Positions 408 through 22,440 of a stretch of DNA of 22,440 bases are shown here, piece by piece. Below the pieces are notes generated by a model. That model searched no databases, was not told the DNA's origin, and worked only from the letters and a program-made list of their open reading frames with translations. The position numbers and the translations under genes are program-made. This stretch comes from a virus: positions 1-22,440 of IMG/VR virus record IMGVR_UViG_3300025865_000061; one strand, 5' to 3'. Numbering within the stretch: the first letter of the stretch is position 1; every line of letters starts with the position of its first letter.

Positions 408-1097
408 TTAGATAGTGTTCTGGTTCCTGGATGCCAAGCTCCTTACAGCAACCACTTTCCCGGCTACTCGAAGGTTGGCGTCCGAATCGACAACAATGGG
501 GGCATAGCTGGGATTCTCAGGCTTCAGCAGTATCTCCCCACCATGAATACTGAGGCGTTTTACGGTTGCCTCATCATCAAGCAGCGCGACAACTATGTCG
601 CCGTTTTCGGCAATGGGTTGTTGGCGCACGATAAGTAAGTCCCCCGGATTCATCCCGGCGTCTACCATACTATCCCCCTGCACCTGAAGTGCAAAGTACC
701 GTCCATTCCTTGCCACTGAACTCTCGACGAGTATCTCTCCGATGACATTCTCCTGCGCCAGAATCGGTTGACCGGCCGCGACCTTACCGATGATTGGAAC
801 CGATATGAGACTGTTGATGGTGTCGACCGGTTCTTGGACCACGGAAAGTCCTCGCGCTTTTCCGTCCTCTCTCCTGACGTATCCCTTCTGAACCAACTGA
901 TCAATCTGTTCATGCACTGTGGAATTGCGCAGCCCCAGCATGGATGCCAAGTCCGCAACAGTCGGTGGAATCCCGCGATCCAGAATGAACCTCTGAATTG
1001 TCCGGAGCGTTCTCGCCTGATGCTCTGTTATGTCGGCCGCTGGTTTACGTCCAGGTCGCCGCCTTTCCTGTGATGCATCATCTCCGTTCAATGCCAT
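408..1097 (-). CDS. lexA: LexA-type SOS repressor (peptidase S24)
   Basis: A 229-residue protein with the full LexA architecture. The winged HTH spans about residues 24-85, including RGIPPTVADLASMLGL and the RREDGKARGL wing. The S24 autoprotease spans about 98-221. The cleavage site is Ala108-Gly109 (KVAAGQP). The catalytic dyad is Ser143 in GDSMVDAG and Lys180 in ATVKRL, so RecA-stimulated self-cleavage should be intact. The ATG at 1097 is chosen because AAGGAGGTGA, a near-perfect anti-SD match, lies just upstream. An in-frame ATG at 1214 would lie upstream of the promoter and adds unrelated residues. The gene is divergent from the replication operon and followed by a co-oriented unknown gene. 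It probably represses itself, and perhaps the phage early genes, as an SOS-inducible lysogeny switch. It could instead be the host lexA next to an inserted element. Confidence 0.93.
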   Translation of the reverse strand: MALNGDDASQERRRPGRKPAADITEHQARTLRTIQRFILDRGIPPTVADLASMLGLRNSTVHEQIDQLVQKGYVRREDGKARGLSVVQEPVDTINSLISVPIIGKVAAGQPILAQENVIGEILVESSVARNGRYFALQVQGDSMVDAGMNPGDLLIVRQQPIAENGDIVVALLDDEATVKRLSIHGGEILLKPENPSYAPIVVDSDANLRVAGKVVAVRSLASRNQNTI

Positions 1098-1161: not shown

Positions 1162-1190
1162 ATTATATCACCGGACATGCATCCGGTCAA
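1162..1190 (-). promoter_or_regulatory. lexA promoter with embedded operator palindrome
   Basis: On the minus strand, TTGACC (1190-1185) and TATAAT (1167-1162) are separated by exactly 17 bp, a near-consensus sigma-70 promoter. The predicted start of transcription is about 1155, leaving a leader of about 57 nt. The spacer holds a perfect inverted repeat with 6-bp arms, ACCGGA-N6-TCCGGT (1170-1187), which overlaps the -35 edge. A repressor bound there would block polymerase, so it is a strong candidate for the autoregulatory LexA operator. It does not match the Gram-positive GAAC-N4-GTTC or E. coli CTGT-N8-ACAG pattern. Confidence 0.8.
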
Positions 1191-1275: not shown

Positions 1276-1317
1276 TCCGACATTTCGCAAATCTCTCCGG
1301 TAAGTAACCAGTGGAGG
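1276..1317 (+). repeat. 42-nt two-block element, copy 1
   Basis: Block one is TCCGACATTT (1276-1285), followed by 8 nt that differ between copies, then a 24-nt block (1294-1317) identical to 20823-20846. It ends 48 nt before the ATG at 1366. It may be a phage promoter or operator, or a leader RNA element. The whole-element spacing is identical in the two copies. Confidence 0.8.
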
Positions 1318-1365: not shown

Positions 1366-1692
1366 ATGACAAACACGTACTACAAGTTCAGCTTTTCGGA
1401 GGACCTCCCTCTGGAACGCGTCAGGCGGATATTCGCCCTGGCGATGATCGCCGTCGAGGCGATCCACGGGGCATCCGCAGTCCGACTCAACCTATCGTGC
1501 AAAATCGACAGCAAGGATCATTCTCTGATGGTTGAGGCTGAATCCGAGACAGGTTATGACTTGGCGAAAGTGCTGCTCCAGTTCTTCACCAAGGAGTTTG
1601 GCGCGTTCTTCGAGGTTTTCCAGGTAGAGGATCGCCGGAAGCACAGCGATTACATCTACGGCCTCGGCACTATTCTGTGGGAGCCAAGATGA
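1366..1692 (+). CDS. Small hypothetical protein, first gene of early operon
   Basis: A 108-residue protein starting MTNTYYKFSFSEDLPLERV. The ATG at 1366 follows GAGGAG with suitable spacing. The frame is open further upstream, but that part crosses the regulatory region and has no ribosome binding site. The pattern suggests a compact alpha/beta fold without membrane segments. The family is not recognised. Its stop overlaps the ATG of the next gene as ATGA, so translation is probably coupled to the nuclease gene. As the leading gene of the replication operon it may be a regulator or host-takeover protein, but nothing in the sequence proves this. Confidence 0.75.
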   Translation: MTNTYYKFSFSEDLPLERVRRIFALAMIAVEAIHGASAVRLNLSCKIDSKDHSLMVEAESETGYDLAKVLLQFFTKEFGAFFEVFQVEDRRKHSDYIYGLGTILWEPR

Positions 1693-10838: not shown

Positions 10839-11756
10839 TCAGATCCGCTCGAGTGCATCCTCCAGGGCATCGTCGGAGAGGTGTGTGTAGATTTCGGTCG
10901 TGGAGATGTCGCGGTGGCCAAGAGCGCGCTTGACGAGAAGCAGGTCGGAGGTTCTGGCGTAGAGGTGAGTCGCGAAGGTGTGCCGCAAGCCATGTGGCGA
11001 TATGTGTTTTGCGATTCCGGCGGCGTCCAGCCAGTGCTTGAGGCGCTGAGCGATCTGCCTGTCGCAGAGCCGTGTACCTCTCGCAGTAGGAAAGAGCGCC
11101 GTGCATTCGCTGGTTACTGCTTTGCGGCGTTCCTTGAGATGGTCACGAAGCAGTGTCCGAAGCGTTGTCTTCAGGAACTTGACCTGCGGGACGTTGCCTT
11201 TTCCTGTGATGCGAATGTGCTTGCCGTCCAGGTCAACGTCGTTAACGTCGAGGTTCACCAATTCCGCGATGCGGATGCCGGTGCCGAGGAACAGTTCGAA
11301 GATAACGCGGTCGCGGCGTGCCAGTGGATTGGCGCGGTCGTGGAGTTCATTGAGCAGCCTGCGCTTCTCTGCTTCGGTCAGGAACTCGGGCGGTGTTCTC
11401 GACAGGCGCTTTGTGGTGACAGCCTTGGCCGGGCTGGAGTCTATCAGACCACTTTCAGCGGCCCACGCAAAGAACGAGCGGACCACTGCCTTGAGTCGAT
11501 GCATTGTCGCGGCAGACTTGGGCGCGTCGTTCTCCGAGATCGCGACTGCGGGACCGGTGAGCGTGGCGTCAATCATCGCGGCGGTGACGTCGGCGACACG
11601 GGCGACAGGCAGTGCCCGGACAAAGCAGCGCAGGTCACGCATGTATGCCGAGATGGTGTGCTCCGAGCGACATTGCGCCCGGAGCCTTACCGCGAAGTTG
11701 CCTATCGCCTGTTCGAGATCGTCAGTCGGCTGCAGGAGCCGGATCGGATTCGGCAT
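10839..11756 (-). CDS. Tyrosine recombinase (XerC/D-like integrase), complete
   Basis: A 305-residue tyrosine recombinase. The N-terminal SAM-like core-binding domain spans about 12-108 and the catalytic domain about 124-300. The catalytic set is complete: Arg162 (GTGIRIAELV), Lys186 (TGKGNVPQVKF), His255 and Arg258 (SPHGLRHTFATH), His281 (LGHRDISTTEIY) and nucleophile Tyr290. The size and lack of an arm-binding domain make it Xer-like rather than lambda Int-like. The ATG follows GGAGGTG and lies 35 bp inside the end of the upstream gene, which encodes only a second core-binding domain. The two are probably translationally coupled. It may integrate or excise the phage or resolve genome multimers. 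It is transcribed against the surrounding terminase genes. Confidence 0.93.
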   Translation of the reverse strand: MPNPIRLLQPTDDLEQAIGNFAVRLRAQCRSEHTISAYMRDLRCFVRALPVARVADVTAAMIDATLTGPAVAISENDAPKSAATMHRLKAVVRSFFAWAAESGLIDSSPAKAVTTKRLSRTPPEFLTEAEKRRLLNELHDRANPLARRDRVIFELFLGTGIRIAELVNLDVNDVDLDGKHIRITGKGNVPQVKFLKTTLRTLLRDHLKERRKAVTSECTALFPTARGTRLCDRQIAQRLKHWLDAAGIAKHISPHGLRHTFATHLYARTSDLLLVKRALGHRDISTTEIYTHLSDDALEDALERI

Positions 11757-12117
11757 TGCGCACCTCCGGTGTGGTTCTCTCGCTGCGGCCCATCGGCGTG
11801 TCTTTCGGAAGCGGGAGCTTGGCGATGTAACCCTGCTCCAGCGCCCAGCACAGGAACATCCGAAAGACTCGAACAGTTTTCCTGACGGTCGGCTCGGAGC
11901 GTTCCTTGCCGCTGGGCATTTTCAGCAGCGCGTCGGACTTGAGAAAGCCCGAGACGTGCGGGACGAGAATGGAGCCGAGCTTCTTGTCTGAGCCGAAGTG
12001 GGCTTCTATCTGCTCGGCATCTTTGGAATACGTGTAGAGCGTGCGTTCGCTCTTGCCACAAGCCTTGAGGTGTTCAAGGTATTCCTGCAGCGCGTCATGC
12101 AGTGTCTTTTCTGTCAT
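11722..12117 (-). CDS. Stand-alone recombinase core-binding (SAM-like) domain protein
   Basis: A 131-residue protein resembling only the N-terminal core-binding domain of phage integrases and Xer proteins: LHDALQEYLEHLKACGKSER, then TYSKDAEQIEAHFG, and PTVRKTVRVFRMFLCWALEQ. There is no catalytic domain. Its last 35 bp overlap the start of the full recombinase in another frame. The ATG at 12117 follows GAGGAGG; a longer frame to 12198 crosses an inverted repeat and lacks a ribosome site. The ending, ESDPAPAAD, is a natural tail with no sign of a recent frameshift. It could pair with the recombinase on asymmetric half-sites or modulate its direction. A relic of a second recombinase is the main alternative. 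Confidence 0.8.
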   Translation of the reverse strand: MTEKTLHDALQEYLEHLKACGKSERTLYTYSKDAEQIEAHFGSDKKLGSILVPHVSGFLKSDALLKMPSGKERSEPTVRKTVRVFRMFLCWALEQGYIAKLPLPKDTPMGRSERTTPEVRNAESDPAPAAD

Positions 12118-12148
12118 CTTACTACCTCCTCGGAGTTTGGTGTGATCT

Positions 12149-12189
12149 ACATTCACGCTTGGAACGTGCCTCCAAGTCAAGTGGAATGT
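12149..12189. repeat. Nested inverted repeats upstream of recombinase pair and terL
   Basis: Outer arms are ACATTC (12149-12154) and GAATGT (12184-12189). Inner arms are CTTGGA (12158-12163) and TCCAAG (12171-12176) around ACGTGCC. The region lies in the 109-bp divergent gap between the recombinase pair and the large terminase, and overlaps a minus-strand TTGACT that could act as a -35. It is a candidate operator or recombinase binding site. Confidence 0.6.
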
Positions 12190-12226
12190 GCTCAGCATTC
12201 ATCTGGGGATTGATCGGAGGAAACCA

Positions 12227-18300: not shown

Positions 18301-19980
18301 GCCAAGGGTCGGATCGGGAAAGCTGAAGAGAAGATCATCGAAGATGCTCAGCGTCTCGGCTGGCAGGGCAAGGCACTCCCGATAGACGAGGACGACATAG
18401 AGGACCAGAACGCGCTCATCTTCACCGAGACGGCGAAAGGCCAGCAGCGCACTGTCATCAAGCTCAAGGTCAGGCCGGAGGCGGAATCGAAGATACTGGC
18501 CAAGCTCCGCAAGGCCACAAAGCAAGTCAGCAAGGTCGGGGAGAGCCTGCCGGAAGACGACTTCGCCGCTGATATCCTCGATGCCGCGAAGAGCGTGAAC
18601 CACCACGCGGGTGATGGCAAGTACAACCAGGCCAAGATTGATAAGGCCGCCGGACACATCAAGGCTCTGAGGCAGCTTGCGAAATCCGATGACCCCGACA
18701 TCCGTGAGATGGCCGATACCTACATCGACTGGGTGGACAGAGTCCAGCAGGCCGCGATTCAAGGCAAGTCAATCCCTGAACGCTTCGAGGGTTATCTGAA
18801 GAAGGTCGTTACCAAGGCCAAGAAGACCGACTCGGACTTCACTGTTCGTAAGACCAAGGTGCTGCTCGAAAAGCGCAGCGTCAGCAAGGGTGACTTGTCT
18901 GTCGAAAGCGATTCTGCCGATCTGAGTGACCTCTTCGGCGGACGACACCTACCGGATGGTGAGCAGTACGAGATAGACTTCGGTGACGGCGTCCGCGCGG
19001 TCTACCGCCCGTGGTCATCAAAGAACCTGTATGCGCATTCCGGTGAGTTCGAGATGGTTGTTCCCGACCGACCGGATGCAAAGAGTCTGGACAGGGCGCT
19101 GGAGCGCATGGAGAAGATCGGGCTGAAGGCTAACGTTGCTACTCCCGAGGATGCGGAGATCCTCTATCTCCACAAGCAGGCATATCTGACAAAGGCCGAC
19201 AAGTCCCCTGAATACACACAGATGGTCTCGTCCCTTGACCAGCGCAATGCGTCCAAGACCGAGCGGGTGCAGAGCATGCGCGCGTTCTGGGAGAAGCGGC
19301 TCGGGGTTTCGGACATCACGAAGACGCCGGGGTATGACCCTGTCGGTGAGTATCAGCTCGGGTTCAAGGACCAGAAGATCACGGGCGGCTACCGCCACCA
19401 GTATCGGTTCGATATCTCTGATGCGGATATGGAGCGCGATATGGCAGGCTACAGTCTACACCACAGTCTGACGAACAGCTCCAGCATGAGCGGGTTCCTG
19501 GATGCGGCTCTGGAAAACAACGGCACCATGATAAGCACGGTCGAGAAGATGAGGTCCGGGGTGCAGCCGCGAGGTATGTCACCGGAGTCGGACATGCGAA
19601 GCGGCGGGGCATCATACGTGTTCACGCGTATCAAGAAGTCGCCACTTTCCGGCGCTACCGGTGAAAACGGGATCTACTTCAAGAAACGACTTCTGCGCCG
19701 GATGGATGCGATAAGCTACAATCACGACGCCTATGGCAAGGTTACCCAAGACTATGTGCCCACGCACCGGGGCAGTGACCCCAAGACCTGGAAGACCTAC
19801 GCGCGCAACTCAAGCAACGAGACCATCCTCAAACACTCGGTGACGTTGCTCGATAACCTGGAAGCGATAGTGGTGGGAAGCCAGTCAGAGCGGACACAAG
19901 TGCTGGCGGTATTCAAGAAGCACGGCATATCCAAACTACCTGACGGCCGCAAGGTCGAAGAAATGGTCCTGGTGAGGTGA
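15397..19980 (+). CDS. Giant multidomain head-morphogenesis protein (polyvalent-type)
   Basis: A 1527-residue protein starting with GTG, AGAAGG upstream, in TAGTG overlap with the portal stop. Residues about 160-292 form a Mu gpF/SPP1 gp7-like minor head domain, with ARTEVLRAHNQGR near 222, Cys258-x2-Cys261 and HPNCRC with Cys283 and Cys285. Residues 343-515 hold four SAP/HeH-like helical repeats (LTVKQLQTLAKGNGI, LTVIQLKDMAKQHGV), with a fifth near 602-640. A Pro/Ala linker (about 665-690) leads to a HipA/PI-kinase-like region (about 712-920), with NHDGHSKQF (825-833) and GIDKG (843-847). The C-terminus (about 1350-1527) may be ADP-ribosyltransferase-like. The head domain usually occurs in proteins of 300-500 residues. 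The rest probably rides in the capsid and may be injected as an effector. The kinase call is moderate and the transferase call weak. Confidence 0.85.
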   Translation: MTVSQPMMCAIADTTWQAKAIREAADKSLMARDMYVNQVVTQLEQSLASARKQVHAAMLGFKELGSLPDNKLAAKQGLEKLDSEIGGVLKSLERDQTLMFKRSGKAAFRAGVFRGIEEFATTQMPFYKDLMPDGIDKLTTSVFTLIDTDALDFMANYNLVLVGDVHRELADGIRKTIFSGVATGKSAKDIVREMGLVIEDKEAFRHAGSKVFSKAQYRMEMIARTEVLRAHNQGRIKFHQQVGVTKLEWMTMEDERMCPVCGGLDGKVFDTDHFPNQPAHPNCRCSSIVAWPLVICGGELGAIAAAGQSACILPPQAIHDQAKQQAEEEKKLKGAFESGQIADLSGLTVKQLQTLAKGNGIGVARTKPDFIKLLDTAEPGIGHADLSGAALQAKIKQYNIAALRSKDDLAKLLADKQAVIKQAKALEEAAKSAAPKTDLSGLTVIQLKDMAKQHGVSLNLTKSDVIEMLDALEPHIDHYNYSGKTLMAAKQKFGIPPLKNKEQLVKALEKTAGKQMADQAKQQALDVAKTEALKKAEQSLKDAAAQIVMPSSPAQYSSFLDSVTVAEAELAKESGLPAAMLEQHAKEVALKKLTFQQQIAAMKSGELKDLAKQTKVTHWQWATKDELTTLFSETDPGKIAAAKAGIEAKHAKWAEKHLGKAAQPVAKPAAPKTQPSPITEPVTSASPNTFSKKGSEFDSADTAWTEQGKPEKFKYEGKAKVGGAHEKEFWIDENGDKWLFKPVGKGSDDFIAHGEEAAYKLGRLIDPDAVEVRTIRLKGRTGSIQKWRNDLAAKYDFSSFDVADLTADEIAQVQREHVLDWLVSNHDGHSKQFLRAKNGKVYGIDKGQLFKFLGSDKLSVDYHPNGVCGEQEPFYNTLFRAAKQGKVTVDPSTTLRYIREVERISDDDYLGLLRPYVEGKFGSDEAGKRAFYELALARKHNLRRDFEGFYSDVLGKKKFAFDDAADIPAKGRIGKAEEKIIEDAQRLGWQGKALPIDEDDIEDQNALIFTETAKGQQRTVIKLKVRPEAESKILAKLRKATKQVSKVGESLPEDDFAADILDAAKSVNHHAGDGKYNQAKIDKAAGHIKALRQLAKSDDPDIREMADTYIDWVDRVQQAAIQGKSIPERFEGYLKKVVTKAKKTDSDFTVRKTKVLLEKRSVSKGDLSVESDSADLSDLFGGRHLPDGEQYEIDFGDGVRAVYRPWSSKNLYAHSGEFEMVVPDRPDAKSLDRALERMEKIGLKANVATPEDAEILYLHKQAYLTKADKSPEYTQMVSSLDQRNASKTERVQSMRAFWEKRLGVSDITKTPGYDPVGEYQLGFKDQKITGGYRHQYRFDISDADMERDMAGYSLHHSLTNSSSMSGFLDAALENNGTMISTVEKMRSGVQPRGMSPESDMRSGGASYVFTRIKKSPLSGATGENGIYFKKRLLRRMDAISYNHDAYGKVTQDYVPTHRGSDPKTWKTYARNSSNETILKHSVTLLDNLEAIVVGSQSERTQVLAVFKKHGISKLPDGRKVEEMVLVR

Positions 19981-20804: not shown

Positions 20805-20846
20805 TCCGACATTTTCTGATTTTCTCCGGTAAGTAACCAGTGGAGG
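20805..20846 (+). repeat. 42-nt two-block element, copy 2
   Basis: TCCGACATTT (20805-20814), 8 variable nt, then the 24-nt block at 20823-20846. Both blocks are identical to copy 1 at 1276-1317 and have the same spacing. It lies in the only sizeable gap on this side and ends 34 nt before the methyltransferase ATG. Confidence 0.8.
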
Positions 20847-20880: not shown

Positions 20881-22440
20881 ATGCAGCTTTTCGCCACGGA
20901 CAATGACCGGCTTGCTTTTCTTCTGGAGACTGACGCCTCGCGCCACCTTGACGAGCTTCTCGCCGAGGCTGCGGAGCTTGTCACAGAAGAACTGCCTGCC
21001 GACCAGCGCCCGAAATACATAACCAACTATATCGGCTCCAAGCAGAAGCTCATTGACTGGATCTGGAAGCACACCCCCGAGGGAGTGGATTCGGTTATAG
21101 ACGCGTTCACCGGATCAGGAGTCGTGGCCTATATGTATAAGACCAAGGGTCTGAAGGTCACCGCTAACGACCGGCTGCGCTACTCCTACCATGCCGCTCG
21201 CGCTATCGTCGAGAACTCAAGCGTTCGGATAAGTGAGGACGAACTCGCCACTCTGCTTGCGAAAAACCCAAAGGCTGGGACCTTTGTCCAAGACAACTTC
21301 AAGGGGCTTTTCTTCGCAAGCGGAGTGCATGGCGTCATAGATAATATCCGGGCAAACGCGGACAAACTCGAGGGCTTCAAGAAGGACATCGCATTCTTTG
21401 CTCTGGGCAAGACGTGCATGTCCGGCAAGGGCGGCTTCGGGCACTTCTCTTCCTCAACCGACTATGGTAAGCGCCAGGATACGCCGGAGGAGTTCACGCA
21501 GCGATTCTCCGACAACATCGCACGCATCAATGCGCTCATATTCGACAACGGCAAGGAGTGCAAGGCGCTCAACAAGGACATCAATGAAGTCCTGCCGGAA
21601 GCCAAGGTCGACCTCGCCTACTTCGATCCGCCTTACGCGACCGAGTTCTCTACCACCAACTACGAGAAGAGCTACCACTTCGTGGAAGGCCTGATGACCT
21701 ACTGGGACGGTCTTGCCATCAACACAGAATCGAAGACCCATCATTACGCAACGGATCACAAGACGGTCACCAAGACAAACGCAAACGAGTTCTTCGGTAC
21801 ATTCCTTGCAAGCGCCAAGCATATCCCGAACTGGCTCATCTCCTACCGCGACCATGCCTACCCTAACGAAGGCGAGATGAAAGACATCATCTCGGCGAAT
21901 GGCAAAGAGAGCCGGATGCAGTCGAAGCAGCACAAGTATCACATATCCTCGAAGCATTCCGAGAACTCGGTTGCGATGGAGCGACTATTCATCTGTACGA
22001 AGGGTGCCAAGTCCGCTCAGGCAGATGAAGACCAGCACTCACTGGAAGTGACTGGGCGCATTGAAGAGAACATGCGGGCTTTGGCCGACGCGCCGTTCGC
22101 CGACGATCTTGACCTGCTCTCCTGCCAGGCCGGGATGGACCCGGTCAAGGTCACGGGCTTCATGGGCAACAAATACGTGATGCTCGGCTGGATCGAGCGA
22201 CAGCTTCCCAAGGATGCGAAGACTGTGGTCGATGCGTTCTCAGGTGGCGCGAATGTGGCCTACCACTTCAAGCGCAAGGGTCTGAAGGTAATCGCCAATG
22301 ATCTGCTGCTCTTTCCATATCACGTCGCCCGGGCCGTGGTCGAGAACTCTCACGAGACGCTGACCGATGAGGACACAGATAAGATTCTGGCTCCCAATGC
22401 CAATGCTGGCAGCTTCATTGTAGACAACTTCGATGGCTAC
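20881..22440 (+). CDS. Tandem D12-class DNA adenine methyltransferase, partial
   Basis: The frame is open from the ATG at 20881 (GGGGAG upstream) to the right edge, 520 codons so far. Domain 1 has the Dam/DpnM order: YIGSKQKL near residue 50, the AdoMet loop DAFTGSG (74-80), and the catalytic DPPY (249-252). A linker rich in acidic residues follows at about 380-420. Domain 2 then restarts with TGFMGNKYVM near 426, a variant AdoMet loop DAFSGGANVAY (451-461) and GLKVIANDLLLFPYHVARA; its DPPY region is outside the window. A 15-bp identical stretch recurs 1131 bp apart (21144-21158 and 22275-22289), supporting internal duplication. It probably protects phage DNA from host restriction. No partner endonuclease is in view. 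Confidence 0.9.
   Translation, partial: MQLFATDNDRLAFLLETDASRHLDELLAEAAELVTEELPADQRPKYITNYIGSKQKLIDWIWKHTPEGVDSVIDAFTGSGVVAYMYKTKGLKVTANDRLRYSYHAARAIVENSSVRISEDELATLLAKNPKAGTFVQDNFKGLFFASGVHGVIDNIRANADKLEGFKKDIAFFALGKTCMSGKGGFGHFSSSTDYGKRQDTPEEFTQRFSDNIARINALIFDNGKECKALNKDINEVLPEAKVDLAYFDPPYATEFSTTNYEKSYHFVEGLMTYWDGLAINTESKTHHYATDHKTVTKTNANEFFGTFLASAKHIPNWLISYRDHAYPNEGEMKDIISANGKESRMQSKQHKYHISSKHSENSVAMERLFICTKGAKSAQADEDQHSLEVTGRIEENMRALADAPFADDLDLLSCQAGMDPVKVTGFMGNKYVMLGWIERQLPKDAKTVVDAFSGGANVAYHFKRKGLKVIANDLLLFPYHVARAVVENSHETLTDEDTDKILAPNANAGSFIVDNFDGY

Follow-up and report, generated by a model that had tools for sequence, protein, structure and literature searches.

Xpf of the B. subtilis prophage PBSX is a sigma-like activator of prophage operons, and ECF sigma factors are carried by many bacteria. 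The principle that a phage supplies a sigma factor of its own has long been known and is not new here; described examples that serve lytic genes are T4 gp55 and SPO1 gp28/gp34 (PMC9429907). CASP-sigma of type III-E CRISPR belongs to a defence locus under Csx30 control (PMC10028731).

The locus described here lies in a 22,440-nt viral contig, analysed over its whole length (IMG/VR record IMGVR_UViG_3300025865_000061; hereafter, the window). We consider it very likely that an element repeated in this window serves as promoter for an ECF-like sigma factor encoded by the phage, with CCGACA as its -35 box, a 16-nt spacer and GGTAAGTA as its -10 box. As with T4 gp55 and SPO1 gp28/gp34, the phage's own sigma would redirect the host RNA polymerase to phage promoters. 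Unlike in T4 and SPO1, the sigma is ECF-like (σ2+σ4) and belongs to temperate phages and prophages, a single promoter type heads both early and late operons, and the end of the sigma gene directly adjoins a promoter that the sigma itself would use. The protein resembles bacterial ECF sigma factors (group 4) in its TIGR02937 and Sigma70_r2/r4 domains, its fold and the distance of about 16 nt between its -35 and -10 boxes, but differs from them in the boxes themselves and in having the phage as its predicted regulon; in addition, an unsystematic look recognised no adjacent anti-sigma. What it has in common with CASP-sigma is that both are ECF-like and take part in the arms race between phage and host. 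The CASP-sigma family NF041236 was the best NCBIfam match of the sigma from the nearest relative, but at 22-23 bits against a 100-bit cut-off, far too low for membership, and 297 genomes of the phylum of the Desulfosarcina host gave no NF041236 match over the cut-off. By description, Xpf is likewise a sigma-like regulator of prophage operons. A literature search, which left most subscription journals outside its reach, found no description of this sigma family, of its promoter or of its use in these prophages or in Wolbachia phage WO, and neither the motif string nor a phage sigma of this sort brought up anything relevant.

A repeated two-box element in the window

The initial annotation had described a two-block repeat, which is present as claimed: 10 nt, 8 variable nt and 24 nt at 1276-1317 and again at 20805-20846. 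Both copies lie on the plus strand and read TCCGACATTT, 8 nt (CGCAAATC or TCTGATTT) and TCTCCGGTAAGTAACCAGTGGAGG. They end 48 nt upstream of the ATG at 1366 and 34 nt upstream of the ATG at 20881, and one (P1) precedes the early operon and the other (P2) the methyltransferase gene, again as first described (Table 1). The record holds these two sites and no more. An exact 24-nt repeat together with a 10-nt repeat at equal spacing would be unlikely by chance in 22 kb, with an estimate of about 1e-6 for the 24-mer alone. Scored with a PSSM derived from relatives, the two copies reached 46.7 and 43.1 bits, compared with -9.2 for the next best site in the window and a maximum of -2.0 in the reversed sequence.

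The original block limits were too wide. The parts conserved throughout the family are CCGACA and (C/G)GGTAAGTAACC, and the core element is CCGACA-N16-GGTAAGTAACC, in which exactly 16 nt separate CCGACA from GGTA; CAGTGGAGG is common to close relatives only. The weak resemblance of CCGACA to a -35 box that had been noted held up, whereas the accompanying remark that no fitting -10 box is clear did not: GGTAAGTA would be a -10 box suited to the phage sigma and not to sigma-70. A search for a sigma-70 promoter (TTGACA-16/18-TATAAT) found no match at P1 or on the early-operon side, and one on the opposite strand, for lexA.

Table 1 Coordinates in the window of the two promoter copies and the genes around them
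Feature	Position	Strand	Remark
P1 -35 box CCGACA (early operon)	1277..1282	+	Conserved box
P1 spacer, 16 nt	1283..1298	+	Only the last few bases (CTCC) conserved within the phage
P1 -10 region GGTAAGTAACC	1299..1309	+	Preceding base C1298 covaries with sigma residue 78
Early operon, opening gene (108 aa)	1366..1692	+	Predicted ferredoxin-like fold
LexA-type repressor gene, divergent	408..1097	-	LexA DNA-binding domain and S24 peptidase
Host-type sigma-70 promoter of the lexA-like gene	1162..1190	-	TTGACC-17-TATAAT, extended -10; contrast to P1
P2 -35 box CCGACA (DNA methyltransferase)	20806..20811	+	Conserved box
P2 spacer, 16 nt	20812..20827	+	Length invariant
P2 -10 region GGTAAGTAACC	20828..20838	+	Conserved box
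DNA adenine methyltransferase gene, runs off the contig	20881..22440	+	PHROG 27806; headed by P2

Orthologs of the methyltransferase in other phages are headed by the same element. The protein encoded directly after P1 (about 100 aa) is conserved and had no match in Pfam or PHROG; its ferredoxin-like fold was predicted confidently (pLDDT 83). Homologs of its gene sit after the sigma gene and promoter in most relatives (52 loci), and the protein is a candidate sigma partner or regulator.

Two further features of the window were recorded. A perfect palindrome, CAGAA-ATG-TTCTG, lies at 1258-1270, just 5' of the P1 -35 box, and is a possible repressor site; it is absent from L005. Within the rightward operon, two tyrosine-recombinase-like reading frames were seen by eye on the minus strand (10839-12198), one at 11722-12198 (N-terminal type) and the other at 10839-11756, in place of which relatives carry a serine-recombinase-like gene near the sigma.

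Distribution and geometry of the element

Among 50,697 phage records, megablast found none that matched the window. The 23-mer core matched two further viral contigs, including the 48.6-kb contig 3300022555_003179 (G001), the nearest relative, which is 87-92% identical over most of the window and carries a third, diverged copy, CCGACAtatcgacaaattcgccGGTAAGTAACC. Used as the sole query, the 15-mer CCGGTAAGTAACCAG matched by chance at many sites within the genes of unrelated phages, and we therefore counted two-box hits only. The pattern CCGACA-N16-GGTAAGTAACC was found in 64 viral stretches. With one further fixed base, it was found in 63 stretches of bacterial genomes, compared with a chance expectation estimated at about 15; a few single hits among them look like chance. 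The best-covered phages carry 8-10 copies each, on the transcribed strand.

The initial annotation had staked its reading on whether relatives hold further copies and whether these are linked to gene starts. Many more copies were found, and they head tail and baseplate genes as well as homologs of genes present in the window, namely the early gene and those for the small terminase subunit, the portal and the methyltransferase. A matrix scan of 583 kb from 11 phages (>14 bits) yielded 52 sites and none in the reversed sequences; an ORF starts downstream of 51 of the 52, and the median gap between the -10 region and this start is 42 nt. The distance from CCGACA to GGTA was 16 nt in 45 distinct hits and took no other value between 8 and 26, while the middle of the spacer varies freely. 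The element therefore has what is expected of a sigma-dependent promoter, namely two conserved boxes, fixed spacing, fixed orientation and a position shortly before genes. In L119, L123 and L129, promoter copies stand in tandem before a small gene, 72 nt apart in L123.

The occurrence of two near-identical copies in one contig might suggest a recent duplication, an attachment site or another mobile repeat. The boxes are fixed while the spacer sequence differs, however, and unrelated phages carry copies before orthologous genes; the distribution excludes such a repeat, and we give it practically no weight. The initial annotation had also offered a cis-acting leader RNA; a riboswitch, a thermosensor or a protein-binding hairpin would be of this kind. 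In the window, CTCC...GGAG pairing around GGTAAGTAACC is possible and weak hairpins can be placed downstream of either copy, but across 41 non-redundant elements the CTCC/GGAG pairing occurs in 10%, the consensus fold is empty and no 4-bp helix exceeds 41%. Moreover, an Rfam search gave no match, the leaders fold no better than shuffles, and an RNA would leave one of the two boxes unexplained. Since the 16-nt spacing is fixed while the spacer middle varies and no helix is conserved, the geometry is that of a promoter, and the leader RNA was discarded as extremely improbable.

The hosts bear on a third alternative, a promoter for an alternative sigma factor of the host instead of the phage's own. 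The box geometry does fit ECF sigma factors in general. Nevertheless, nearly the same element serves phages of Gammaproteobacteria, Desulfobacterota, Kiritimatiellota and others, and it is confined to prophage regions: in the 7.3-Mb chromosome of Desulfosarcina alkanivorans, 13 of 14 sites lie on one strand in two prophage-like clusters at 289-327 kb and 371-414 kb. Similarly, 6-10 clustered copies occur in Ectothiorhodospira, Desulfocarbo, Desulforhopalus, Desulfofustis and Pontiellaceae. As the element also adjoins a phage sigma and covaries with it (see below), we regard a host factor as very improbable and retain the promoter of a phage-encoded sigma.

A near-identical prophage (about 94-97% nucleotide identity over kilobases, compared with Desulfosarcina alkanivorans NZ_AP021874, 360-420 kb) was seen in L091, L092, L093, L096, L103, L104, L107, L115 and L126. 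Its hosts are Ectothiorhodospira shaposhnikovii (Gammaproteobacteria), several Desulfobacterota and a Synergistaceae MAG. This spread may reflect an unusually wide host range or recent transfer, or conceivably contamination, the last being likeliest for the MAG. Isolates with the prophage include Ectothiorhodospira shaposhnikovii DSM 243 and Desulfobulbus rhabdoformis DSM 8777.

A sigma gene linked to the element

When the proteins of 11 phages were clustered, one family alone was present in all 10 sequences long enough to cover its region; the eleventh is the window, which is truncated. The shared family is a sigma-70 family protein of about 195 aa and is ECF-like, comprising σ2 and σ4 without σ1 or σ3. 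Two of its members scored 57-62 bits against TIGR02937 (cut-off 42.9), the Pfam domains Sigma70_r2 and Sigma70_r4/r4_2 were above or near their cut-offs with no sigma1 or sigma3 domain, and the family matched PHROG 1740, 'RNA polymerase sigma factor'. In a structure predicted with AlphaFold (mean pLDDT 71), a disordered linker joins two confident helical domains. Its nearest PDB matches are ECF sigma factors, with whole-chain TM-scores that are low, which a flexible linker between two domains would lead one to expect.

In G001, the sigma gene (44665-45336 of the contig) is in the rightward unit beyond lexA, directly ahead of the third promoter copy. The G001 protein is diverged, scoring below the family cut-offs by itself, and is assigned through the homologs with which it aligns. 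The window does not contain a sigma gene; that of its phage presumably lies just outside the 22-kb fragment, to the left of position 1, and would resemble that of G001.

Linkage was assessed in 80 loci retrieved by sigma alignment alone, without use of the motif. The matrix motif exceeded 14 bits in 61 of these, compared with a maximum of 9.0 in reversed sequences. With a looser two-box score (at least 11/13), 76 of the 80 loci, compared with 3 of 80 reversed controls, had the element next to the stop codon of the sigma gene, commonly 0-14 nt past it. Apparent misses are shifted versions, for example GCGTCA-N16-GGTAGGTCTA, and in one phage, G017, the element does not directly follow the sigma gene. 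In a second collection, consisting of whole genomes of two host phyla, the sigma was present in 19 of 299 and 12 of 395 genomes, and the element scored at least 12/13 in 29 of 38 sigma loci (the hit in L289 being probably a spurious one), with controls reaching at most 10. Terminase relatives could not provide a motif-negative control, their loci being too short.

The same comparison bears on the possibility, also raised initially, that the element is an operator, at which the LexA-like repressor or another phage regulator would control nearby sigma-70 promoters. GGTAAGTAACC is an imperfect palindrome, P1 adjoins the gene of the LexA-like repressor, and regulators of the LexA type bind several operators. 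On the other hand, the lexA-like cluster is present in only 5 of the 11 element-bearing phages, compared with the sigma in all 10 that include its region, and no sigma-70 promoter was found on the early-operon side. A LexA-type operator should occur wherever the repressor does, independently of orientation, which is not what was found: the element always has one orientation to the gene and a fixed two-box geometry with 16 nt between the boxes, and it varies in step with the sigma, in WO as well. An operator is not needed to explain the element, and we judge it highly unlikely next to a sigma-dependent promoter.

Covariation of sigma and promoter

The promoter copies of one phage share a variant, and variants differ among phages. 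Over the boxes and the 4 nt before the -10, copies differed by 1.6 mismatches within a phage and by 3.7 between phages, a separation reached in 0 of 5000 label permutations. One phage, with a terminase 78% identical to the window's, shares only 31% sigma identity with G001 and has promoters of a correspondingly different type (GGTATATATCC), one of them ahead of its methyltransferase.

Residue 78 of the sigma (numbered as in L186) lies in a stretch putatively aligned with region 2.4. In the 64 non-redundant pairs of sigma and promoter, it was Arg in 25 of 25 with G as the base before the -10, and in 0 of 39 with another base. It is the only sigma column without conflict; the next best has 7. 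A direct contact between residue 78 and this base is plausible. On the tree, each trait needs only 4 changes, with three supported independent pairs, all concordant. With so few pairs a sign test cannot reach significance (p = 0.25), and with only 3-4 independent switches shared ancestry may still account for the covariation. Covariation between the fourth base of the -35 box and sigma residue 175 was suggestive and inconsistent.

A diverged counterpart in Wolbachia phage WO

A tblastn search with the sigma against the 50,697 phage records returned WO phages only, at about 25% identity and E values down to 3e-10. In both WOVitA1 and the WO of wMel, GGACGAATT occurs exactly three times per phage and is absent from the reversed sequence. 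Each copy stands at the head of an operon, in one case immediately behind the sigma gene, and is followed by a phage-specific -10, TGTATATAT in WOVitA1 and TACATATATA in wMel, which gives the general forms GGACGA-N16-TGTATATAT and GGACGA-N16-TACATATATA; WOSoc and WOVitA2 have two-box versions of their own. At residue 78, WOVitA1, wMel, WOSoc and WOVitA2 have R, R, E and K, respectively, and the matching base is G, G, C and T. The diverged WO sigma and its own set of two-box elements thus appear to follow the same residue-78 rule.

Predicted sigma-dependent promoters lie at 55753(-), 56600(+) and 65191(+) of KX522565.1 and at 19495(-), 20535(+) and 26153(+) of L309; L310 and L311 also carry predicted sites. 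In both WOVitA1 and wMel WO, the spacer is 1 nt longer in the copy behind the sigma gene than in the other two. No description of WO transcriptional control was found in the papers searched, and the sigma-promoter model predicts three lytic promoters in WO.

Proposed circuit and implications

A shared phage promoter, as the initial annotation had suggested, is strongly supported by the two boxes, the fixed spacing, the position at gene starts, the linkage to the sigma and the covariation. In the circuit that we propose, the host polymerase would uphold the repressor state through the sigma-70-type promoter of the lexA-like gene. Upon prophage induction or infection, the phage would make its own sigma, which would bind the host core RNA polymerase and direct transcription from every copy of the element, so that sigma expression would open all phage promoters. 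In this fragment, P1 would drive the replication/recombination operon and P2 the methyltransferase and the following genes; in relatives, the same promoters would also drive terminase, portal, tail and baseplate genes. We infer the binding, the transcription start sites and the order of events in this scheme. As early and late genes both carry the promoter, a shared promoter alone leaves their timing unexplained.

Very probably, a large group of temperate phages in several bacterial phyla uses this two-box promoter and its own sigma to turn on operons. Whether a broad temperate-phage lineage in prophages of several phyla, including the diverged WO, controls its whole lytic programme by an ECF-like sigma of its own, with a sigma-promoter code that can be read, is, in our estimate, an evenly balanced question. 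As read from the sequences, one residue of sigma region 2 apparently sets the base before the -10. The many natural sigma-promoter pairs, with this apparent one-residue/one-base rule, would be useful as orthogonal promoters. A scan of any contig for CCGACA-N16-GGTA would locate operon starts and, beside one of them, the sigma gene, providing a regulatory map for a large and little-studied set of environmental prophages. If the proposed circuit is true, a promoter specificity of their own may partly explain how near-identical prophages come to reside in hosts of different phyla.
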